Assembly (NCBI GenBank): GCA_012515445.1
Contig: JAAYYI010000077.1
Coordinates: 1-33,007, forward strand
Origin: Candidatus Bathyarchaeota archaeon
GTDB lineage: Archaea; Thermoproteota; Bathyarchaeia; Bathyarchaeales; Bathycorpusculaceae
Reading direction: 5' to 3'
Length of the DNA stretch: 33,007 nt
Both the position numbers and the translations under genes were made by a program. Shown here piece by piece: positions 22,277 through 32,793 of the stretch; positions within the stretch are counted from its first letter, which is position 1, and every line of letters begins with the position of its first letter. The notes under the pieces were generated by a model. It saw only the letters and a list, made by a program, of their open reading frames with translations, had not been told where the DNA came from and did no database searches.

Positions 22277-22328
22277 GGTGACGCCTTATTACCAATTGTT
22301 TAGATTTAAAGATAAGGCTATCCATGGG

Positions 22329-22359
22329 CCGTATACAAAAGCATCCCCCAAACACACTT
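22329..22359 (-). repeat. Dispersed repeat, copy 1
   Basis: Reverse-strand core GATGCTTTTGTATACGG preceded by GTGTGTTTGGGG. It lies 53-83 bases before the nnr start and points toward it. Confidence 0.7.
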
Positions 22360-22423
22360 TTTGCCGCGTAAAATTTCCCAGACCCTGAACCAGCGGAAAT
22401 CTTTGCCAAAAACAGGTTATTTC

Positions 22424-22454
22424 TTCGAAATTTTTCGAACTGTATATAATCATG
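22424..22454 (-). repeat. Upstream box of repeat copy 1 (TATA plus TTCGA repeats)
   Basis: On the reverse strand: CATGATTATATACAG, then TTCGAAAAATTTCGAAG. Nearly the same box precedes copy 7 at 32697-32726, so these two copies share a larger element (126 and 97 bases). Confidence 0.5.
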
Positions 22455-22853
22455 CAAGGGCAAGAATGTGTCCCTGGGGTTGACTGAGTCGCCAGAGGAC
22501 TGTTGGTTAATTAGTTATACTTTAAAGTTCAAATAATAGTGCCCTCTAAGTTGATCTATTTTTTTAATCCTGCTTCAAAGGCAAAAAACCGTTCCAATTT
22601 GTCACGTGTCATACGTCAATTCACTGCCAAAACAATTGACCAAGGTACAAAAATAATGTCAAAACGACAATCGATTACGATTTTACTCTCTAAAAACACA
22701 ATTTGGCCCTAGCAGCATCGGTTAAAAAATTTTAGCGTTGTTACAAAAACGGTGCTCGGATCCAAAATTGGCGGGTGGTGCCTGTATGAGTGACTTGTGG
22801 AGTGGCAGTCGAAAGTGTTGCTGGTGTGTTTTTGGCAAAGTTTCTTGTGGTGG

Positions 22854-22872
22854 TTTCGAAGTAGCTTCGAAA
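22854..22872. repeat. 8-bp hairpin TTTCGAAG-TAG-CTTCGAAA
   Basis: A perfect inverted repeat with a three-base loop in a gene-less stretch. Its TTCGAA core is shared with the boxes at 22424-22454 and near 32303. Confidence 0.4.
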
Positions 22873-23150
22873 AATATTCGCAGAGAACACAATTAACAGA
22901 TATGTGTTAAAATTATGCGATATGATGACTGATTAAACGCTTTATTGTCGCAATTTTTCCATGAGGTATGCCTGTTAAGGCTTTTCGACTGCCGAAAGTG
23001 GTGTCTAGAATATCGAAGTATGGCGGGTTTTGCTGGGCTTGGCATTTTTCTTTGAAATTGAGGGAAAGGTTATTTTTGCGTCTGCACGTAGTTTGCCGTG
23101 GGTGCTGCCTGTGGCCTGTGATGATCAGAGTATGCGTTTTCTGCAGTGGC

Positions 23151-23181
23151 GACTTTGTTTTGGTGATGCTTTTGTATACGG
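23151..23181 (+). repeat. Dispersed repeat, copy 2
   Basis: GACTTTGTTTTGGT followed by the exact core GATGCTTTTGTATACGG. It lies about 80 bases before the Mrr-like gene, in the same orientation. Confidence 0.7.
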
Positions 23182-23261
23182 GGCTCGCAGCCTTTGTTAT
23201 CATCTTGGGGCAGATATGTCCAAATTTGATATTAATGTGTTTACTATGAGATGTGTTAGTT

Positions 23262-23969
23262 ATGAGTGTTGAGCGTAACCTGTTAATTTCAGTGCTAAAA
23301 TTAACCAAAGAAGGCGCCGCTTTAACTAATGATGTCAATATTGACGCTCATATACCATCGGAAGCTTGTTTGATGTTGCTTCAAAAAATGCAAAATGAAA
23401 ATTTCATTTATTTCAAAGGCGAGACAATCGAAGCGGACAGCGATGGCAGACTAAAAATCGCCATAAAAGCAGCCCAGCTAGGTGCCGATTTGCAACGCAT
23501 AAGCGATCTGCTGAGGTGGCAGGAGTTCGAGGAAATCGCAGCTGAAGCACTCAGAATCAACGGATACACTGTGTACCATAATGTCCGTTTTAAGCATGGC
23601 AACCGCAGATACGAGATAGATGTAATCGGATGCAGGAAACCCCTTGTTGTATGTATCGATTGCAAACGCTGGCAGCATGCAATCGCTGCGTCTGCGCTTC
23701 GTAAAATCGTTGAGGAACAATTCCAGCGAACACAAGCCTTGGCAGATTCGATTCCTAACCCGAAGCTGCAGCTTGAATGCGGCAAGTGGGATCGAGCCAA
23801 ATTTGTTCCCGCAGTGCTCTCATTGATGCAGGGCGCCTACAAGTTTTATCATGAAGTGCCTATAGTGCCTGTTATGTCGCTCCAAGATTTCATCGGGCAG
23901 CTACCGCTGTATCTGGATAACGTTAAGGTTTATTCTAAAAAGTTCTCGACGTTAACTTCCAATCTGTAG
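23262..23969 (+). CDS. Mrr-like PD-(D/E)XK nuclease with N-terminal winged helix
   Basis: About 235 residues from ATG 23262 (an in-frame GTG lies three codons earlier). Residues 1-75 look like a winged-helix domain (NLLISVLKLTKEGAALTNDV onward). Residues about 87-160 form a restriction-endonuclease-like fold: FEEIAAEALRINGYTV with its glutamate, EIDVIG with the metal-binding aspartate, and CIDCKRW, in which D-C-K replaces the usual E-x-K. The ending, from MQGAYKFYHEVPIVPVMSLQ on, is conserved in archaeal relatives of this type. Likely a DNA nuclease for defence or repair; no methylase gene is adjacent. Its 3' end overlaps the ABC permease by 18 bases. Confidence 0.75.
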   Translation: MSVERNLLISVLKLTKEGAALTNDVNIDAHIPSEACLMLLQKMQNENFIYFKGETIEADSDGRLKIAIKAAQLGADLQRISDLLRWQEFEEIAAEALRINGYTVYHNVRFKHGNRRYEIDVIGCRKPLVVCIDCKRWQHAIAASALRKIVEEQFQRTQALADSIPNPKLQLECGKWDRAKFVPAVLSLMQGAYKFYHEVPIVPVMSLQDFIGQLPLYLDNVKVYSKKFSTLTSNL

Positions 23970-25826
23970 GATGCCTGTTTTAGACAGTTTAAATGCTGGA
24001 TAGAGGCTCAAAACGAACATTATTATTAGCGCCGAAACGAGCCAAGCTGCAATCGATGCAACTGTTGCAGCTGTAACAATGGGGTTGGCCATCAAAATCA
24101 TCAGCGTAATGATTACTCCGAAGGAGATACCGACGCCGAAGCTGCTAAGTAGTAGAATCCCGCTTTCAAACGCGGCGATATTTACGATTATTTTAGGTTT
24201 TGCGCCTACTGCGCGGAGCACCGTGAATTCTTGGCGTTGCTCATCGATGGATAGCATCATGTAGCTGACTATGCAGATAGCTGCTGAGACTAAGCTAAGA
24301 AGCGGAATAAACATGACTGTTTGCCATGTATCGCCCAAAAAAGCCTTATTTGCAGCGATTGCTGGTTGTAGGTCGGTGACTTCTAAGTTAGGGTCAATGG
24401 ATTGTACAGTGCTTCGGATCTCTTCTATGGCTGTAATTCGGTCAACGGAGTCGTTTAGAGCTACTGCAAGCATGTTTGGGCCAGCTGCACTGGTTACGTT
24501 AATCAAGCCTTCTACTGGTACGTAAGCGACATAGCCGTTGTTTATCGAACCCACGCAGAGTCCAACAATGTCAAACTCTCCGCTGCCAATCTGCATCCCT
24601 TCAACAAGCGGGTCTGAAAGGTTAATTTGTTGATTACGATCAGGAGAATACATTGTTAGAGAAACTGAATCGCCAATAACAGCTTCCATGGCACCGTTCT
24701 GATTTAAGCTCCTTCCTTTACCTACAAAATCCGTCGCCATCTCCGCGGGATTCATACCGACTACAAGTATCTCTGCGTCTCTTTGGCCTCCAACCCATGC
24801 CTCTTTGCCCTCATAAACCGTCCAACTCCTAACTTCCCGGACATTTTGAACTAAAACAAGCCTTGAATCAACAGAAACTACGCATGATAAGGGCTCTATT
24901 TTACTGCTTACAGCACCAGATATGGCAAAGCGTGGGTCTGATAAATTTAAATCACTTATGTCTTTACTGCTTCCACTGAATTTAGCTAGTAATGCCTCAT
25001 AATTATCGGCGATGCCACTATAAGCTATGGCTACTGTATTGCTGTTTTGTGTGCCCTCAACCCAGGAAGTTGTTGTGTCTTTTGCGATTATTCCTCCTGC
25101 AACCGAAACCGTGAGTAAAACAAACACAACTGAGAGCAGCACCACAATACGGGCGACGGGTGAAATGCGTCTAACCATGCTTCTTGAGGCTACACGTATT
25201 GTTAGCGCAGAGCGTGAAAGCGCTTTTTGTTTGCCAGTTACGACTAAGCCGTAGTAGCTTGCTGGGGAGAGAGCTTCTGCAGCGGTTAATTTTGCGGCTT
25301 TAAAGATGGGTTGCAGGCCGAAAAACAGGGCTAAAACGAAGAAGAGAATAAAAACTAGAGGCGCATACCACCATGCGCCTAAAGATAGACCGCCGAAAAC
25401 AACTGTGGAGACAGCTAAATCTGCAATAAACCCAATTACTGTGCCGAGAAGGCAGCCTACTGTGGTTACTGTAAGAAGTTCGGTCATGAAGTAGCCGCCG
25501 ACTAAGCTGTTGGGGCAGCCCGCTGCTTTTATGAGGCCGAAGTCGCGTGTCCGCTGAGCCATCATCAGCATGACAATAAACGACGTTAAGATTGCTCCTA
25601 CCAAAAACACCAATAGTCCTATAAAGAGAATGAACTGGTTAAAAACCGATGTCAACCCAAGCGTAAAAATTCCGGTTGAAGAGGTCAAACCGAGTCCTAG
25701 GCGGCTGCTGAAAAGTATCAAAAATAATGTAGCGGCAACACCCAACGTTAAAGTAACAATGACTAAGCTTGTCTGGAGGCGCCTACGGATAAGGTCGTTT
25801 ATGGGGAAACCTGCGCCGCTACTCAT
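23952..25826 (-). CDS. MacB/FtsX-type ABC transporter permease
   Basis: A 624-residue membrane protein with two FtsX domains. The N-terminal half has a first helix (SLVIVTLTLGVAATLFLILF) and an FtsX block with MAQRTRDFGLIKAAGCPNSL. A further helix near residue 230 leads to a large extracytoplasmic region of about 260 residues. The second FtsX block near the C-terminus has SIDEQRQEFTVLRAVGAKPK. This is the architecture of exporters and mechanotransmission ABC systems such as MacB and LolCE, not of importers. It overlaps the ATPase gene by eight bases, so they form one unit. The cargo is unknown. Confidence 0.9.
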   Translation of the reverse strand: MSSGAGFPINDLIRRRLQTSLVIVTLTLGVAATLFLILFSSRLGLGLTSSTGIFTLGLTSVFNQFILFIGLLVFLVGAILTSFIVMLMMAQRTRDFGLIKAAGCPNSLVGGYFMTELLTVTTVGCLLGTVIGFIADLAVSTVVFGGLSLGAWWYAPLVFILFFVLALFFGLQPIFKAAKLTAAEALSPASYYGLVVTGKQKALSRSALTIRVASRSMVRRISPVARIVVLLSVVFVLLTVSVAGGIIAKDTTTSWVEGTQNSNTVAIAYSGIADNYEALLAKFSGSSKDISDLNLSDPRFAISGAVSSKIEPLSCVVSVDSRLVLVQNVREVRSWTVYEGKEAWVGGQRDAEILVVGMNPAEMATDFVGKGRSLNQNGAMEAVIGDSVSLTMYSPDRNQQINLSDPLVEGMQIGSGEFDIVGLCVGSINNGYVAYVPVEGLINVTSAAGPNMLAVALNDSVDRITAIEEIRSTVQSIDPNLEVTDLQPAIAANKAFLGDTWQTVMFIPLLSLVSAAICIVSYMMLSIDEQRQEFTVLRAVGAKPKIIVNIAAFESGILLLSSFGVGISFGVIITLMILMANPIVTAATVASIAAWLVSALIIMFVLSLYPAFKLSKTGILQIGS

Positions 25827-26490
25827 CGGTACTCGCCAATTTGCCGTCTTTTAGGATAATTACTTGGTCTGCGAGGCGACGGATTTCAAGGTCGTGGGTT
25901 GATACAATGACGGTTTTGCCCTTGCTTTTTAGCAGCTGCAGCACTTCAAGAATCTTTGCTGCGTTTTTTGCATCGAGGTTACCTGTGGGTTCATCTGCTA
26001 GTATCAGCTCAGGATCATTCGCCAGTGCCCTTGCAAAAGCAACACGTTGCTGTTCGCCGCCGCTTAACTGTGAAGGGAAATGCTTTAGCCGATGCTCCAG
26101 CCCGACTGTTTTTATCAATTCTGTTACGCGGGCTTCGATTTCCTGCGATGGCTTACGAGTCCATTCCATAGGGAAAGCAACGTTTTCCGCTACTGTTAGG
26201 GTGGAGACTAGGTTGTATGATTGGAAGACGAAGCCTATGTGATTGCAGCGGAAGTCTGAGAGGAATTCTTCGTCTCTGCTCGTTAGGGATTCGCCTGCGA
26301 CGGTGACGTCTCCGGCGGTGGCTCGGTCGATGCCGCTTATGATATTTAATAGTGTGGTTTTGCCGGAGCCGGATTGTCCGCCGACTACGATGAATTGAGC
26401 TTTAGGGATAGAGATGTTGATGTCTCTTAGGACATGGATCTTTTTTGTGCCTAGCAAATAGTACTTCTCAAGACCCTTCGTTGATACCAT
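25819..26490 (-). CDS. ABC transporter ATPase, LolD/MacB type
   Basis: A 223-residue nucleotide-binding subunit with all motifs: Walker A GGQSGSGKTTLLN, Q-loop in GFVFQSYNLV, signature LSGGEQQRVAFARAL, Walker B LILADEPTGNLD, and switch histidine in VSTHD. The GNLD after Walker B is typical of the LolD/MacB/FtsE group. It powers the overlapping permease gene downstream. The start is ATG. Confidence 0.96.
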   Translation of the reverse strand: MVSTKGLEKYYLLGTKKIHVLRDINISIPKAQFIVVGGQSGSGKTTLLNIISGIDRATAGDVTVAGESLTSRDEEFLSDFRCNHIGFVFQSYNLVSTLTVAENVAFPMEWTRKPSQEIEARVTELIKTVGLEHRLKHFPSQLSGGEQQRVAFARALANDPELILADEPTGNLDAKNAAKILEVLQLLKSKGKTVIVSTHDLEIRRLADQVIILKDGKLASTDE

Positions 26491-26574
26491 CGACGCTTCC
26501 TGCAGGTTAATCCTCCTCTATAGACCTGTTTAGGGTGGTCTACCTTTTAAGTAAATAAGAAGCTTGAGGTACAG

Positions 26575-27027
26575 TCATTTACCGGCGGCGTCATCAATGT
26601 AGCAGGTTTTTATGTTTAGGTTGCCGCGATCACGTTTTAGGATACGGGCCTTGTCTGGCAACTTATCCTTCTGCCAATCCGCCCAGTTAATTTCCCGAAA
26701 GAGCCATTTCTTGCCAAGGTGAGCTGCGACTACGGCGTGCTTGTACTCGTTGACAGAGGGGATGAATTGGTCTAGGAAGCGGAAGAGTTTATCGATCTGA
26801 ATCTTAGGGAAGTATGCGTAGTATGTTGCGTTTTTTACTTCAAACGCGTAAACATGCGGGCCACGCCGTGCCATGATGTCCGGAAGTGGGTTGAGGCTAG
26901 GGTTGCTCACGGGCACCCGGACCGAAAAGTAGCCGTTCTTCTGCAACAGCTTAACCAACGCGGTTTCACTGTAGAAGCCTCTTTTACGCCATCGTCTAAG
27001 ACGTATGCGGTCCTCTTCAGTACTCAA
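26575..27027 (-). CDS. hjc: Hjc-like Holliday junction resolvase family nuclease
   Basis: A 150-residue protein with the archaeal Hjc catalytic pattern: E21 (SETALVKLLQKNGYFSVRVP), D50 (PLPDIMAR), and E63-x-K65 (AFEVKNA). Hjc cuts four-way DNA junctions during recombination. The protein is somewhat longer than the usual 120-135 residues, with an arginine-rich N-terminus (IRLRRWRKRG) and a C-terminal tail rich in charged residues, so a related nuclease role cannot be excluded. It starts at ATG. Repeat copies 3 and 4 lie upstream. Confidence 0.8.
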   Translation of the reverse strand: MSTEEDRIRLRRWRKRGFYSETALVKLLQKNGYFSVRVPVSNPSLNPLPDIMARRGPHVYAFEVKNATYYAYFPKIQIDKLFRFLDQFIPSVNEYKHAVVAAHLGKKWLFREINWADWQKDKLPDKARILKRDRGNLNIKTCYIDDAAGK

Positions 27028-27099
27028 CTCTTTGTACCTCTAGCTATTGCTACTTTGGGTACCCGTTTAATTAAAAAATTGTTGCACTCATTAGCGCAA

Positions 27100-27130
27100 A
27101 ACTGTGTCCTGGGGATGCTTCTGTATACCG
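27100..27130 (+). repeat. Dispersed repeat, copy 3
   Basis: AACTGTGTCCTGGG followed by GATGCTTCTGTATACCG, one change in the core. It points into the gene-poor stretch. Confidence 0.6.
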
Positions 27131-27368
27131 CAAAGTTCTGCTTGGTGAAGCTGGAACCTTCTGGTGCACGTAAAATCAAAAAGTAATACTTACCTCACCA
27201 GTGCATCTAAAGTGGGATTCTCTAACATTCAAGCACATGAAAAAATGGCCGTTTTACTCATCATAATTGCTACAAATGCTACAAGGAATTGACCATGGTC
27301 ACGATCAACCAATGCACATTGAGCCAAAATTTTTCTTCACCACAGATCTTGATCTCAACGACAAGATG

Positions 27369-27399
27369 CCGTATACGGAAGCATCGCCAACACACTTCA
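27369..27399 (-). repeat. Dispersed repeat, copy 4
   Basis: Reverse-strand AGTGTGTTGGC followed by GATGCTTCCGTATACGG, two changes in the core. It faces copy 3 and points toward the hjc-like gene. Confidence 0.6.
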
Positions 27400-27794
27400 C
27401 CTTCACTGAAAGTTCCTAAAAAGAGCGGCGATAGGCGTTCCGCTTCTCAAAAAATAGGGTAATAAAAAAAGCTCCGCTGCCTGAAAATCAAGCTTTGGCC
27501 AGCTACAAACCAAAGATGCTTTTACTAGAAAAAAGGGTTGAGTATCAAAGAAAATGAAGCAAACCCACGAGCCAAGGCACCGCTTAATTTCGATTTACCA
27601 CCGATTTATCCCTTTTTTTAAAATAATGCCAATTCATGGCGATTTACTGCCAACAGGTCAAATTAACGATTGTAAAGCGCCGAAATAAGGTTTGCTAAAG
27701 AACAGCTCAAACTTTTGCACCAAAAACAAAAACAATTTTGATGAAAAAAGCCCCTTTCGCCAAAACAATCCCAGTTTGAGCCTCATTGGCGTGT

Positions 27795-27925
27795 CCCTAG
27801 GGGCTTGGCATGGAGAATATCGTGGCCCCTTATAATTAGTGATGAAAATCTCCATGCGAAGCAAAAGTCGACGTTTTCGACTAGCCTTCGCAATTCTCCG
27901 GCAACTTTTGGGTCTGTTGGAGCTT
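27795..27925. ncRNA. Candidate structured RNA: pseudoknot followed by hairpins
   Basis: AGGGGC (27799-27804) pairs with GCCCCT (27825-27830), and GCATGGAGA (27808-27816) pairs with TCTCCATGC (27849-27857). The two pairs interleave, giving H-type pseudoknot topology with loops of 3, 8 and 18 bases. A long hairpin follows at once: GCGAAG (27856-27861) and AGTCGA (27866-27871) pair with TCGACT (27877-27882) and CTTCGC (27886-27891), sharing two bases with the pseudoknot, so a switch is possible. A CTCC...CAAC/GTTGGAG hairpin follows. No protein frame explains the tract. No promoter is assigned and the strand is unknown. Confidence 0.4.
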
Positions 27926-28272
27926 AGCTGTAAACTTTGCTGTTTTTCTCAATTTTAGATAAAGGCACAACTTTGTCGTTCGCCAACTAAGCTAAGTGTA
28001 CTTAGTGCGTCAGGTTTTTCCTTAGGGCTTGATGATTTTTATTTTCAGCTTACTGCCTGTTTGATTGAATTTAGCTGCTCTGTTTCTGCAGAGAACTTGG
28101 GTGGTACCGCGCATAAGTTTGAACTTGACGGTAACTCTGTAGCTAAACTGGTTTTTTATGAGTCGAAATTTCGTTTCTAAGTAGTGAGGTCTTGTGAGTG
28201 TGTTTTTGGCTTTGGGTTGCCACCAGCACCACCAGTGAATCCTTCTTTGGTAATTAGTCAAAGGGAGCTGTT

Positions 28273-28365
28273 TTGTCTGTTCAGCTTACAGAAATCGCCT
28301 CAACCAATAGGCACCGCAGATTAGCTGCAGAAGCCAAAACAGGAACTCTTGCTAACGTCTTTTAG
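28273..28365 (+). CDS. Possible 30-residue protein or truncated gene
   Basis: TTG at 28273, with AAGGGAG about six bases upstream, opens MSVQLTEIASTNRHRRLAAE then AKTGTLANVF and TAG. The good ribosome-binding site and normal composition suggest either a small peptide or the N-terminus of a decayed gene. No family is recognised. Confidence 0.28.
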   Translation: MSVQLTEIASTNRHRRLAAEAKTGTLANVF

Positions 28366-28779
28366 TAGAATAATTGAACGGGGATGGGTGCCGTTGTCTT
28401 GCCATAAACTGCTGCTTGTAAAGACTCTACAACCAAACAGCAGCAACGCTTTCCACCTGCTGATTCAGAAAAGTAATCTTTAGCTTAAAATTATAGAAGA
28501 TGAAGTAGTAGGGCGGCATTCTCTTCTTCCTCATATTTTAAAATAAAGACCTGCACACTAACTGACTGAGGCAAAGCTATGGGTGAATTTCTTTCTAGAA
28601 AAGCGGTTGCACGTTTGATCGCCAGTTTGTGTATGTAATTAGGTAGGATAAGTTGACCCTTTTTCGGTTGCGTTAACATTAAAAGATCCGTGGTCGGTGG
28701 CTAAAGTTGGGTGCATATTACCAAAAAAATGATGTTCACCAGTGCTCACCAGACAAAAAAGGGAAAAGGGAAAAAGGTT

Positions 28780-29994
28780 TTAGCGGCGTTCTCTAAAGCG
28801 TTCTTCAACTATTTCAGAGGGCACTCCGCCTGCGTTAACTTTGCTCTGGTACTCAAACGACTTCCAATTAGACGGCAGCTGATCCTCAGAGACAAACTCC
28901 ATGTTGTAGGGTCGCAGATTTACCTGTGTGTCTAAGACTTTGTTTACGTATTCCTTGTTTGGCTCAAAAACAATTAATGGCTCTATGCTGTCCGTTTTGA
29001 TGACGTCTCGGATGTCCTGTTTCTCGTATTTCAGCAGCAGGTCATTGCACATGTTAAAGTGTTCTATTTCATGTGCACAGAACTCAGCCCAGACGCTTCT
29101 AATCCGCTCGTTAGTTTCTGTCTGCATAGCCGAGTAATAATTGTAGGCCTCGTTAAGCTGGATAAGAGTCGCCATCTGAAGCGGCGTCGCAGTAGGATCC
29201 CCAACGTCCTCGTACTGAGAAACATGCTGCTCCTCTATCTCGGCGATTTCGGCATACAGTTTGCGTGCAAGATCATTTTCCAAGTTGGCGCCATGCGTTC
29301 GGTAATACATCATCGTCTGCTGCTCGCCCGAAACGATTGTATAGTAATTCATCCACGACTTGATATGCGCAGAGTCCTTATCAAAATGCTTCCTCATCTC
29401 ATCTTCAGGGTGGCGATGCTCAACACTCGTGGGCCTGCCCGGCTTAATCTCGGTTTTGCCCTGCACAATTTTCTCAGCATCCTTATTCTCCAACATCTTC
29501 ATAAGCAGACTGTAACGGTAGAGATGGTCAAAGTCTTCAAGTAAAGCATAATCAAGTACCTGCCGGAAATAATCATCAGGTTCATTCTTCGCCAAATTAG
29601 AGGTCAAATCAACAGCCACCTGCTCATACGCGATAGTTGTTTCTAGGATGCTTTGATTGCCGGGGTTGAGCCAGTCTACGGTTTCCTGATGCTGGGAGTC
29701 AGCGCGCCTTATCGTTGACATTACCCTCTTTATTTCAGGATTATTAGTCATCCGAGAAATCGCATGAGACGTAATGACGCTGTTATTCTCTATACCATTT
29801 AAGAGTATAACGCGAGTTCTCGTATAGGCATCGACTTTATCCTTGTCATAAGGGGTTTTAATCATATTATTCCAATTTGTGAACTGCTGCTCAATCGGTT
29901 TGCCCTGTAGTTCAAAAGGTTTGAAGACATTGGAAGCTTCGCGGGTCTGTTTTTGCTGAGTCATTCCTTGGGTTGTTGAACCAATGTTTTGCAT
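28780..29994 (-). CDS. Ferritin-like protein with two helical bundles
   Basis: A 404-residue, almost wholly helical soluble protein with ferritin/rubrerythrin-type carboxylate-histidine pairs. The first bundle (about residues 65-170) carries E69, E124 and LLEDFDHLYRY (E153, H157). The second (about 215-325) carries E224, E254-x2-H257 (EIEEQHVSQYE) and E309-x2-H312 (CAHEIEHFNM). The second set matches a di-iron site best. Iron storage, peroxide removal or an oxygenase role are all possible. The N-terminal 45 residues are glutamine-rich and the last 80 fall outside the bundles. A reverse TATA-like GTTATAGT near 30017-30024 would give a near-leaderless mRNA from this ATG. Confidence 0.7.
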   Translation of the reverse strand: MQNIGSTTQGMTQQKQTREASNVFKPFELQGKPIEQQFTNWNNMIKTPYDKDKVDAYTRTRVILLNGIENNSVITSHAISRMTNNPEIKRVMSTIRRADSQHQETVDWLNPGNQSILETTIAYEQVAVDLTSNLAKNEPDDYFRQVLDYALLEDFDHLYRYSLLMKMLENKDAEKIVQGKTEIKPGRPTSVEHRHPEDEMRKHFDKDSAHIKSWMNYYTIVSGEQQTMMYYRTHGANLENDLARKLYAEIAEIEEQHVSQYEDVGDPTATPLQMATLIQLNEAYNYYSAMQTETNERIRSVWAEFCAHEIEHFNMCNDLLLKYEKQDIRDVIKTDSIEPLIVFEPNKEYVNKVLDTQVNLRPYNMEFVSEDQLPSNWKSFEYQSKVNAGGVPSEIVEERFRERR

Positions 29995-30078
29995 AAAATC
30001 ATCGGAGGTTAAAGAGTCTACTATAACTATTATCGGTATGTGACCTCCAAAAGATGCAACGGCGCTTTAAAAGCAACA

Positions 30079-30288
30079 CTACAGCGGCATACCTGCAAGC
30101 GAAATGGCTTCAGCTTTTCCATGCATCTGCCTATAATGCAGATCATGCTCTTCTAAAGTGTCAAAAACCACGCCGCAAACCCTACATCGATATCTGCCAC
30201 TGGATGTTTTCTCAATGTAATCCTCATAATCCAGCAGAGCATTCGCTAAATTAAACGGACGAATCTCAATATACTTTTCTGCCTTCAT
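30079..30288 (-). CDS. C2H2 zinc-finger protein
   Basis: A 69-residue protein with one classical C2H2 finger: C35-x2-C38-x12-H51-x4-H56 in YRCRVCGVVFDTLEEHDLHY followed by RQMH. The N-terminal half is helical (NLANALLDYEDYIEKTSSG). ATG at 30288 is chosen because AGGTGA lies eight bases upstream; the GTG inside that site would add four residues. Probably a DNA-binding regulator of unknown target. Repeat copy 5 lies about 125 bases upstream in the same orientation. Confidence 0.78.
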   Translation of the reverse strand: MKAEKYIEIRPFNLANALLDYEDYIEKTSSGRYRCRVCGVVFDTLEEHDLHYRQMHGKAEAISLAGMPL

Positions 30289-30409
30289 TCTCCAATTCAC
30301 CTAAGGCTGGCTTGCAACTAGAATTTCCTTCAAGATTGACTGAGTCCTGTTGACTTTAAAATGTACGTGGGTGGCTCAAGACAGCAACAAAGAAACTACA
30401 CAACAGTTT

Positions 30410-30440
30410 CGGTATACAAAAGCATCACCAAAACACAGTC
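30410..30440 (-). repeat. Dispersed repeat, copy 5
   Basis: Reverse-strand GACTGTGTTTTGGT followed by the exact core GATGCTTTTGTATACCG. It lies upstream of the C2H2 gene and, with copy 6, brackets yjbQ as a direct repeat. Confidence 0.7.
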
Positions 30441-30497
30441 CTGCATTAATCAGAAAAGCTTTTCAAACTAAACCGCCCGATTACCTATGGGATCGCC

Positions 30498-30911
30498 ATG
30501 TCAGATTTTAAAGTCGTAAACAAAACAATCAAGTTCTCCACTCGAGGAGAAATCCAGTTTATAGACCTAACAGACCAAGCCCAAGAAGCAGCATCAATAT
30601 CCGGCGTAAAAAACGGCATAATACACGCTTTCGCCCCACATGCAACAGGCATCTTGATGGTGCAGGAAAACGACGACGCCCTGCTACAAGACATAAAGAC
30701 TCTCCTAGAAAAGATCGTTCCGAGGCACAGCAACTATAATCACCCATCAAACGCGCATGCACATTTGCGCTCTATGCTTCTGCCGCCAGACAAAACATTG
30801 CCTGTGATTAATGGGAAAATAGCTTTCGGTACTTGGCAATCGCTGTTTTACGTGGAAACTGATGTTTATCCTAGAGAACGGACTGTGATCTTCCAAGTCA
30901 TGGGTGAATGA
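30498..30911 (+). CDS. yjbQ: YjbQ family (UPF0047) protein
   Basis: A 137-residue protein of the YjbQ/UPF0047 family, small beta-sandwich trimers for which weak thiamine-phosphate synthase activity has been described; the cellular role remains unsettled. Conserved blocks are all present: AFAPHATGILMVQENDDALL, VPRHSNYNHPSNAHAHLRSM, GKIAFGTWQSLFYVE and PRERTVIFQVMGE. The histidines of PHAT and NAHAHLR are the expected active-site or metal residues. It starts at ATG. It is bracketed by repeat copies 5 and 6. Confidence 0.92.
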   Translation: MSDFKVVNKTIKFSTRGEIQFIDLTDQAQEAASISGVKNGIIHAFAPHATGILMVQENDDALLQDIKTLLEKIVPRHSNYNHPSNAHAHLRSMLLPPDKTLPVINGKIAFGTWQSLFYVETDVYPRERTVIFQVMGE

Positions 30912-31350
30912 CCATAAATTCTACCGTATACAAAAGCATCAACGAAAAGCAGTCTTTTTACTATTTGGCGTTTTTCCATTTTTTTCGCATCTAGAGGTTC
31001 GTTTATCGTAGGTGAAAAATTACTGAGGGTATGGAGTAACTTAACAGTTAAGTAATAAAATATGGACAATTTAGCGCTGCATTTAACATATAATTATAAA
31101 AAGTGTACGTTCGATTAGCTTTCGCACAACATAAAGTCGTTAAAAGGACCGTTTAGACTTCCTCTTCAGGTTCTATAAAGTGCAGAGAGGGCTTGGGAGG
31201 GTCAAAATTGCCGATTTAGTGAAAACTTTTACGAGAAAACGCCCAGATAATATGGGAAATACTGATTAAAAAAATAAATTAAGCAAGAAATCAGGGCTTA
31301 AGCATTCTATTAGCATGATTATATAACCTTCGCATCAATTCGAACTTTCC
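30912..31350. other. Gap between yjbQ and pncA
   Basis: About 440 bases with repeat copy 6 near its left end and otherwise A/T-rich sequence. I see no gene or RNA to support. Confidence 0.5.
30924..30954 (-). repeat. Dispersed repeat, copy 6
   Basis: Reverse-strand GACTGCTTTTCGTT followed by the exact core GATGCTTTTGTATACGG. It begins 13 bases after the yjbQ stop. Confidence 0.7.
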
Positions 31351-32076
31351 TTACTGCTCAGTCTTTAGCCTCTTTTTAGCTGTCTTGGAACGCAATCGGG
31401 CTTTCTTCTTTGCTTCAAAAGCTGCAGACGGCGCCTCAGCAAACGCATCAGACGCAGTTTCTTCTATCGGTAGCTTATCAAAAGACTCAGCGAAGTCGGC
31501 GTCGACAGCCTGCTTGGCCCCACTCTTAGTCATTTCCTCCACAGCGTGGTCAACATCGCCAGGCTTAACATCAATACCTAAAGTAGCATCCATCAACACG
31601 ACTGTTTCAAAACCCAAGGTTCTCGCATCTAATACAGTATTGACCACACAGTAGTCAGTTGCTAAACCAGCAACAAAGAGCCGCTTTATGCCTAACCGCT
31701 CTAATTCAAGATCAAGGTTTGTAGTGTCAAATGCTGAGTAAGCTTCATGCGCCGGATCAGTAGCCTTAGAGATTATAAGTGTTTTATCCGGTAGTTTCAT
31801 CTTCGGACTGAATTTTGCTCCTCCTGTTCCTTGAACGCAGTGTTCAGGCCACAGTCCGCCTTGATTTTTAAAAGAAATGTGATTTGCAGGGTGCCAATCC
31901 CGTGAAGCAATAATGTGGGAATCGGCTGATTGAAAATGCTCGATATAGTTGTTTATAACGGGGATGATTTGGTCACCTCCTTTAACTGGGAGAGCGCCGC
32001 CCGGTAAAAAATCGATTTGTATATCTGTAATTAGAAGCGCATCATGTTCGTTTAGACTTATTTTTGTTTTGCTCAA
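31351..32076 (-). CDS. pncA: Nicotinamidase/isochorismatase-family hydrolase
   Basis: Converts nicotinamide to nicotinate for NAD salvage. 241 residues from TTG 32076, chosen because AAGGTG lies six to eight bases upstream; the GTG within that site would add three residues. The catalytic triad is D18 (LLITDIQIDF), K104 (IISKATDP) and C143 (ATDYCVVNTVLDA); metal ligands are D60, H62 and H66 (SRDWHPANH). WPEHCVQGTGGA is a further nicotinamidase hallmark. An extra C-terminal tail of about 45 residues, alanine-rich then strongly basic (KKKARLRSKTAKKRLKTEQ), is unusual and may bind nucleic acid or a partner. Confidence 0.93.
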   Translation of the reverse strand: MSKTKISLNEHDALLITDIQIDFLPGGALPVKGGDQIIPVINNYIEHFQSADSHIIASRDWHPANHISFKNQGGLWPEHCVQGTGGAKFSPKMKLPDKTLIISKATDPAHEAYSAFDTTNLDLELERLGIKRLFVAGLATDYCVVNTVLDARTLGFETVVLMDATLGIDVKPGDVDHAVEEMTKSGAKQAVDADFAESFDKLPIEETASDAFAEAPSAAFEAKKKARLRSKTAKKRLKTEQ

Positions 32077-32696
32077 TTGCTCCACCTTAAAGTAGACTGA
32101 GAAAAGACAGTCCGCGTTCTAATACTGCTATTTGGGCACTATAGGATAAACTTTTTCACTTGTGATCTTTCATGTGGCTTTTCACTTTTTCGTTGTCCGC
32201 TGCAATCCTTTAGCCTCGATTTGCTGTAAAATTACTTTTTTTATGTTTTTTAAATATTTAGCGCAGCTTGCTTTTTAACTGAATAATGTAAAAATTGACC
32301 ATTCGAAAAATTTTCGTCGAGGAAGTTAACCGTTTATTGCTGAACTTACTAGCAACAATAGGTTAAAGAAATTTAGAAGTAAAATACCGACCGAACACGG
32401 ACGAATCCAAAGGATCTGCTTAGCAAAAATACGAAGATCCCATCAGTAAATACCCTCAAATCAGGCACCACAACGCTAAAAATCTTTATGTATAACACTG
32501 TTTAAGCTCCAATCCGAGTTTCACAGAGACGCTTAGGGTAGAGAAACACAAAAATGACGACTATTTTATCGATTGTTTTAATCTCCCATCGTGTACTAGC
32601 GAGTAAATTCTTTTTTGAAAAGTCGCCGTAACTACCAAACTATGCGTAACAAGAGAGAACTCGCTAAAAAAACAGTAATGCACCAAGTTGCGATTT

Positions 32697-32726
32697 CATG
32701 ATTATATAAGGTTCGAGCAATTTCGA
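32697..32726 (+). repeat. Upstream box of repeat copy 7 (TATA plus TTCGA repeats)
   Basis: CATGATTATATAAGG then TTCGAGCAATTTCGATG, matching the box before copy 1 at most positions and in the same place relative to the core. Confidence 0.5.
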
Positions 32727-32762
32727 TGTTTTATGCCTATTTTGACCTTTTTTGCAAAGGTC

Positions 32763-32793
32763 GACTGCGATTTGGCGATGCTTTTGTATACAA
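32763..32793 (+). repeat. Dispersed repeat, copy 7
   Basis: GACTGCGATTTGGC followed by the exact core GATGCTTTTGTATAC. It lies about 155 bases before the last gene, in the same orientation. Confidence 0.7.

Follow-up and report, generated by a model that had tools for sequence, protein, structure and literature searches.

Why should an archaeon carry seven copies of one asymmetric sequence in the intergenic DNA of a single 10.5-kb region? The question is raised by contig JAAYYI010000077.1 of a Candidatus Bathyarchaeota archaeon (assembly GCA_012515445.1), whose 33,007 nucleotides, hereafter the window, are one whole contig of a draft assembly of 2.44 Mb in 127 contigs. The answer that we favour, and propose tentatively, is that the copies are putative protein-binding sites in a locus that maintains the chromosome of Bathyarchaeia and lies where replication terminates or close by, partition (a centromere-like function) being its most likely role. 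A syntenic locus kept throughout the family, a conserved core block of DNA, the place of the locus on the chromosome and the polarity of the sites together speak more for chromosome maintenance than for a metabolic operator or the remains of a transposon.

The original prediction, made from the letters of this DNA, had described seven copies of a 15-base core, and all seven are found at the positions given below, five of them exact, one with one mismatch and one with two. When up to three mismatches are allowed, the window holds nine matches where 1.21 are expected, a number reached by none of 100 shuffles; the remaining two both have three mismatches, and one of them (14513) lies outside the last 10.5 kb. 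The similarity extends, as had been seen, about 14-16 bases upstream and about 2 downstream of the core. The motif is asymmetric and about 30 bp long, with the consensus AAACTGTGTTTGGGTGATGCTTTTGTATACG over 100 sites, in which palindromy is confined to an inner GTATAC. The copies, scored with a profile (R1) built from 17 sites, the window's seven among them, are as follows, with their expectation values (E):

Copy 1, 22328..22360, minus strand: 34.5 bits, E 5.2e-9; about 55 bp before the NNR (YjeF) gene and facing it.
Copy 2, 23149..23181, plus strand: 36.1 bits, E 1.6e-9; about 70 bp (73) before a nuclease gene and facing it.
Copy 3, 27098..27130, plus strand: 28.4 bits, E 4.5e-7; left half of a convergent pair upstream of hjc, the Holliday junction resolvase gene.
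Copy 4, 27368..27398, minus strand: 27.1 bits, E 1.2e-6; right half of the same convergent pair.
Copy 5, 30410..30442, minus strand: 36.9 bits, E 8.6e-10; before the YjbQ gene, facing away.
Copy 6, 30924..30956, minus strand: 33.7 bits, E 9.3e-9; just beyond the 3' end of the YjbQ gene.
Copy 7, 32761..32791, plus strand: 28.7 bits, E 3.5e-7; close to the contig end.

None of the seven lies inside any firm gene, in agreement with the original prediction, which had also held that copies 1, 2, 5 and 7 are aimed at a nearby gene. The latter view stands for copies 1 and 2; copy 5 turns its back on YjbQ (71 bp away) and the gene that it faces is about 420 bp off, while between copy 7 and the contig end there is no open reading frame (ORF) of at least 80 amino acids. 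These facts bear on the idea that a transcription factor uses the sites as operators and has the adjacent genes in its regulon. Sites that are mostly intergenic, several of them within about 160 bp of start codons, are what such a regulon would lead one to expect, but the adjacent genes are functionally unrelated and partly swapped while site and core block stay, the orientation to genes is inconsistent, and the polarity to the origin and the core block are left unexplained, so that we hold operators to be unlikely. The broader notion of a regulatory element, offered at first together with a mobile repeat and a processed RNA, fares similarly: the sites may regulate genes, but they face genes both ways and keep a single polarity to the origin outside the cluster. 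As a set, these three early options find partial support.

The motif is not a peculiarity of one contig. The assembly contains nine exact copies of the 15-base core, five of them in these 10.5 kb, and none of a reversed-pattern control; with up to two mismatches there are 25 against two for the control, which places the core above chance frequency. Profile matches keep away from coding frames, only 14 of 100 falling in ORFs of at least 150 amino acids although such ORFs make up 65% of the DNA (21 sources). A search of the genus with R1 found the motif in 32/32 genomes at E ≤0.5, with 20 matches in the window's own genome and 5-15 in each of the others. A second profile (R2), made from 100 sites of 21 sources, detected it at E ≤0.01 in 80 of the 90 genomes and 26 of the 32 genera of the family, its training genomes matching by construction. 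The usual layout is a single intergenic cluster, which spans 11 kb at most and lies in a region of conserved synteny, accompanied by dispersed copies; three or more sites are present in 18/20 same-genus regions, which were fetched for their hits. On four contigs totalling 1.54 Mb, 23 of the 24 matches below E 1e-3 lie within clusters and one about 35 kb off, four further matches being at chance level. All 28 records retrieved with the Hjc protein belong to Candidatus Bathyarchaeota/Bathyarchaeia.

The dispersed copies of the own genome have a feature of their own, in that about eight of the ten examined sit in longer diverged repeats of up to about 290 bp. At four of these loci (L009, L016, L017 and L025) the motif is surrounded, from about -160 to +125, by intergenic repeats that have diverged and whose C-rich stretches end in TTATATAA-like boxes; another module, beginning GGTCAACTGCGATTT, is common to L001 and L008 and resembles L016 and L018. 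A mobile repeat of the miniature inverted-repeat transposable element or repetitive extragenic palindromic type (MITE/REP-like), as had been envisaged earlier, could explain these dispersed copies, and its insertion would have to be biased by replication direction, a fork-direction bias that some transposons do show. We nevertheless regard this explanation as very doubtful: the synteny of cluster and core block holds in most genera of the family and reaches other families, and the copies of the window's cluster are alike over some 30 bp with little in common beyond.

What distinguishes the cluster is a conserved non-coding block framed by a convergent pair of sites, whose members are separated by 242-282 bp in 14 loci and in seven by about 1 kb or more, which rules out a fixed spacing. 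The window contains two copies of the core block, located with a model of site plus block (R3) built from 25 loci, of which the window is one row and all of which match by construction:

27131..27256, plus strand: conserved non-coding core block joined to copy 3; R3 match 27100-27256, 81.2 bits, E 5.2e-23.
28640..28762, minus strand: second, inverted core block without a recognisable 30-bp site, in a gene-poor gap; R3 positions 41-164, 40.1 bits, E 3.1e-10.

At E ≤0.01, where weak matches may be of the site alone or the block alone, R3 finds 128/256 genomes of the class (79/90 in the family); at E 1e-8 or better, where each listed row spans the block, it finds 88/256, of which 66 (out of 90) belong to the family and 22 to five further families within the order. 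Outside the order there are three same-class matches, all marginal. A coding role for the block is rejected, since no frame is open in more than 6/25 rows, and so is a structured RNA, RNAalifold yielding 0 consensus pairs. The processed RNA of the original prediction is therefore not borne out: Rfam matches nothing in the window at its gathering threshold, and on four loci it gives one tRNA (L253) and nothing at the element; the window has no tRNA.

In several genomes two inverted units of site plus core are present, convergent and about 1-3.6 kb apart in several of them, while many loci have one core unit only. A lon-like gene between the two units has the same direction as hjc in G050 and the opposite one in G069 (L236 and L247, both flanks visible); where one flank is visible, G049 and G068 resemble G050, and G035, G034 and G081 resemble G069, G073 being rearranged. 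These opposite orientations indicate that the segment between the units was inverted at least once. In the window, the 1.2 kb between the inverted cores (27400-28640) has no ORF of at least 80 amino acids, the place being occupied by the lon-like gene in some relatives of other genera. Would the locus then be a site of specific recombination for the resolution or inversion of chromosomes, as Xer/dif with accessory sequences? The terminus-like position, the core with its flanking inverted sites, comparable to what is reported around the Thermococcales dif (PMC2958812), and the inverted lon-like gene would suit it. It is however quite improbable in our judgement, given that the 30-bp sites are multi-copy, that cores within one genome are poorly alike (65% in L236, and no alignable stretch of more than seven bases in the window), and that a search at the core for dif arms (11 bp, about 6-bp spacer) gave no clear inverted repeat, the best mean pairing being 0.42 against a background of 0.25; no recombinase gene was noticed beside the locus, in the course of work that included no search aimed at recombinases.

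The preferred reading, a chromosome-maintenance locus, draws on the orientation of sites outside the cluster, among other evidence. Among the matches listed, 34/34 non-cluster sites on the Cdc6-1 contig point away from Cdc6-1 (16 genomes), the sample being restricted to matches with E ≤0.01 on the contig that also carries the best Cdc6 match, an E cut chosen after the data had been seen. The same holds for 25/25 sites in the eight genomes with complete match lists, and for 19/19 when the class at 9-15 kb, in which one site is evidently orthologous, is removed. Chance-level hits tabulated for comparison point away in 9/14 cases, a count that omits one G058 hit pointing toward the origin and three G057 hits at or beyond the cluster. 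Genes around the origin of G022 are co-oriented to 62-64%, too slight a bias to produce this polarity, and a single polarity relative to the origin outside the cluster points to chromosome maintenance. In many genomes a motif copy is present at about 11-14 kb from Cdc6-1, and several of these genomes have it between MazG-like and Lsm-like genes, identified by eye.

Polar sites bring to mind Tus-Ter and RTP-Ter, whose sites are asymmetric, about 20-30 bp long, multi-copy and polar to replication. A polar replication-fork barrier of that type would have permissive copies along the replichores and opposed copies confined to the terminus. The 34 outside sites are co-oriented with forks coming from Cdc6-1, and convergence is seen both in site pairs and in whole site-core units. 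Inside the cluster, however, orientations are mixed, and in both the window and G061 the sites at the two ends (the first on the minus strand, the last on the plus strand) face outward, so that arriving forks would encounter them in the blocking orientation, an argument against a strict fork trap; in addition, many loci have a single core unit, and no barrier protein was identified. For these reasons a fork barrier seems to us improbable.

The place of the locus on the chromosome was measured in genomes for which Cdc6 was looked up and in which the locus and Cdc6-1 share one contig, as a share of the circle; closure of the contigs in the good cases is unconfirmed, and G184 (85% complete, weak match) was left out. 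In the 6/6 examined genomes that are at least 95% complete, the locus lies about half a circle from Cdc6-1 (0.47-0.50):

G061: distance 0.4998.
G143: distance 0.492; block-only match, E 6e-6.
G145: distance 0.492; block-only match, E 6e-6.
G064: distance 0.485-0.486; draft, total to two digits.
G050: distance 0.473-0.496; draft, total to two digits.
G057: distance 0.475-0.498; draft, total to two digits.

G143 and G145 are probably close relatives, as their equal scores suggest, and the six cases, coming from four genera, are not six independent ones. A terminus position is well supported for the most complete genomes only; for the window's own genome, in its 127 contigs, it would follow by analogy with these.

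An antipodal place would suit equally well a second, Cdc6-independent origin evenly spaced from oriC1, and the local change of guanine-cytosine (GC) skew near the cluster has a minimum-type sign in several contigs. Local skew steps there rank with the largest of their contig for most window sizes of the skew scan (taking the best of ±15 kb, a choice that favours them), and skew corrected for coding strand rises across the cluster in 3/4 contigs. At the G022 oriC1 the sign is the opposite, which in this one genome argues against a second origin. More telling are the origin recognition boxes (ORBs): three of them scoring at least 19.8 stand upstream of Cdc6-1 in 12/12 regions scanned, whereas the best score at the clusters is 19.0 across 22 regions (one of which, L096, has one site and no cluster) and 16.6 in the four long contigs, scores that rule against an Orc1/Cdc6 origin at the cluster. 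The matrix was made from boxes in most of these same origin regions, with a score cut set after viewing the data. Upstream of Cdc6-1 in L214-L226 and L235, the three boxes have a conserved layout. Considering also that, over distances of up to 300 kb, the outside sites are directed away from Cdc6-1, we give a second origin very little credence.

If the locus serves chromosome maintenance, which machinery could act on it? A ParA/MinD-like ATPase gene and a winged-helix gene, adjoining or overlapping one another, lie 1-8 kb from hjc in 12/48 hjc loci, and in 7/19 of those having at least 8 kb on both sides; the 48 count L246 as well as L093, and L245 as well as L084, each pair being the same genome twice. 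The winged-helix protein, of about 120 amino acids, has a predicted long helix and an almost invariant predicted winged helix, whose best profile match, a weak one (E 0.035), is the pNOB8 centromere-binding protein AspA. Its structural model has a mean predicted local distance difference test (pLDDT) score of 66, and the Foldseek matches, all with E values over 0.06, are generic ones in which AspA and TubR appear amid proteins of the ArsR type. An Sso10a-family gene accompanies the cassette in 8 of the 12 loci, above the curated cut-off in the one tested, and in L095 the cassette stands next to sites with no hjc in view.

In the model that we propose, a trans-acting DNA-binding protein would recognise the asymmetric 30-bp motif, and the sites and core block at the terminus would build a nucleoprotein complex, the few sites of the replichores pointing from origin to terminus. 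The complex would have a role in partition, functionally like parS or SegB sites, and may help to finish the copying or the separation of the chromosome; the candidate machinery is the cassette of ATPase and winged-helix protein that some of the genomes have near the locus. It is this cassette that makes partition our first choice, ahead of fork control and chromosome resolution as possible alternatives. The motif, its clustering and synteny, the core block, the polarity away from Cdc6-1 and, in the most complete genomes examined, the near-antipodal place are observed, whereas the binding protein and the function are inferred.

Several observations weigh against this model. The motif is non-palindromic, unlike the parS, SegB and AspA sites. 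At 36/48 hjc loci, the window included, the DNA retrieved does not contain the cassette, and the Foldseek search with the winged helix gave nothing at E 0.001 or better. The split at 95% completeness, from which the count of six in six derives, was made after the numbers had been seen, and two of these six (G143 and G145) are the block-only matches. Among the less complete one-contig genomes, 1/8 only (G152) is near-antipodal:

G187: 92% complete, partial match; distance 0.043.
G185: 90% complete, hjc as proxy; distance 0.417.
G140: 88% complete; distance 0.236.
G153: 78% complete; distance 0.314.
G052: 75% complete; distance 0.117.
G148: 64% complete; distance 0.265.
G152: 63% complete; distance 0.473.
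G151: 62% complete; distance 0.175.

Two further genomes, G092 and G093, have the motif at chance level only; their hjc genes lie 0.39 and 0.24 of the circle from Cdc6-1, respectively. The minimum of the contig-wide cumulative GC skew is near the cluster in 1/4 contigs (G022) and elsewhere in G023, G021 and G018. Local skew pooled over pieces of about 20 kb is weak and not significant (-0.044 ± 0.028 at the origin and +0.015 ± 0.015 at the cluster), 7/11 origins being negative and 11/19 clusters positive; this pool counts both L084 and L245 and leaves out four loci in which sites were too few. Gene orientation, which at first look was convergent in G022, converges on the cluster no more than background when four contigs are ranked (0.41-0.88), and was rejected as an indicator of fork direction. 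The GC skew thus lends weak support to a terminus, and gene orientation none.

Across genera the neighbours of the cluster are an Mrr/NERD-type nuclease, hjc and YjbQ, with an ABC transporter in part of the loci; in the window, the three are identified by their domain matches and by synteny:

23253..23969, plus strand: Mrr/NERD-type nuclease gene; PF08378 5.6e-8, PF04471 1e-7.
26575..27027, minus strand: hjc, Holliday junction resolvase, adjoining the core block; PF01870 1.1e-11.
30498..30911, plus strand: YjbQ-family gene; PF01894 2e-32.

The N-terminal region of the nuclease is probably a winged helix; against solved structures the protein has a single insignificant match. Positions 28780-29994 encode a 404-amino-acid protein with weak similarity to rubrerythrin or encapsulin-cargo ferritin, which is also found at this spot in L078 and L080 and in no other mapped same-genus region.

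In conclusion, our observations bear on the form and clustering of the centromeres of archaeal chromosomes, which a 2016 review presents as an open question (PMC5120986) and for which a chromosome-wide map of SegB sites has since been published in Sulfolobales (PMC12284271). Now that a motif and a core block are defined and a candidate ATPase cassette is named, in an uncultured lineage that is widespread, that question can be tested with purified proteins, and the origin-to-terminus polarity of a long archaeal motif would surprise specialists. No paper on the motif or the locus was found in the open-access literature, among the matches listed, in agreement with the earlier statement that no family with this core had been described. 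It is possible, although we advance it with less confidence than the partition model, that we are dealing with a centromere or terminus locus of an undescribed kind, made of asymmetric 30-bp sites and a DNA core at the terminus, sites along the replichores and a ParA-winged-helix-Sso10a cassette.

How does it compare with known systems, fork traps (PMC4999828) included? It shares asymmetric, multi-copy and polar sites with Tus-Ter and RTP-Ter, but here the outer sites of the cluster face the wrong way. Archaeal Xer/dif is alike in its conserved flanks with inverted repeats and would be so in its terminus location, but archaeal dif consists of one 28-bp site whose inverted arms are 11 bp long (PMC2958812). 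Archaeal ORBs are likewise clustered, replication-linked sites; they differ in sequence and are found at Cdc6-1, not at the cluster. The sites of ParABS, parS, are palindromic where our 100-site consensus is asymmetric, and a ParA-type ATPase lies near the sites at 12/48 hjc loci (7/19 with wide flanks), the window not being one of them. The AspA-ParB-ParA system of the archaeal plasmid pNOB8 also has a winged-helix protein encoded with ParA, to which ours has weak profile similarity, and differs in being plasmid-borne, with a 23-bp palindrome and a ParB adaptor (PMC5120986); no ParB-like gene was noticed at our locus, by an inspection that included no search aimed at ParB. Finally, the SegB motif of the Sulfolobales SegAB system is a 13-bp palindrome situated mostly inside genes, as opposed to the mostly intergenic, asymmetric sites of about 30 bp described here, and its form TCTAGA-S-TCTAGA has 0 matches in the window at ≤2 mismatches; yet SegAB also associates a multi-copy motif, clustered at one locus and dispersed over the chromosome, with a ParA-type ATPase and its site-specific DNA-binding partner (PMC12284271), the pair to which our candidate cassette would correspond.

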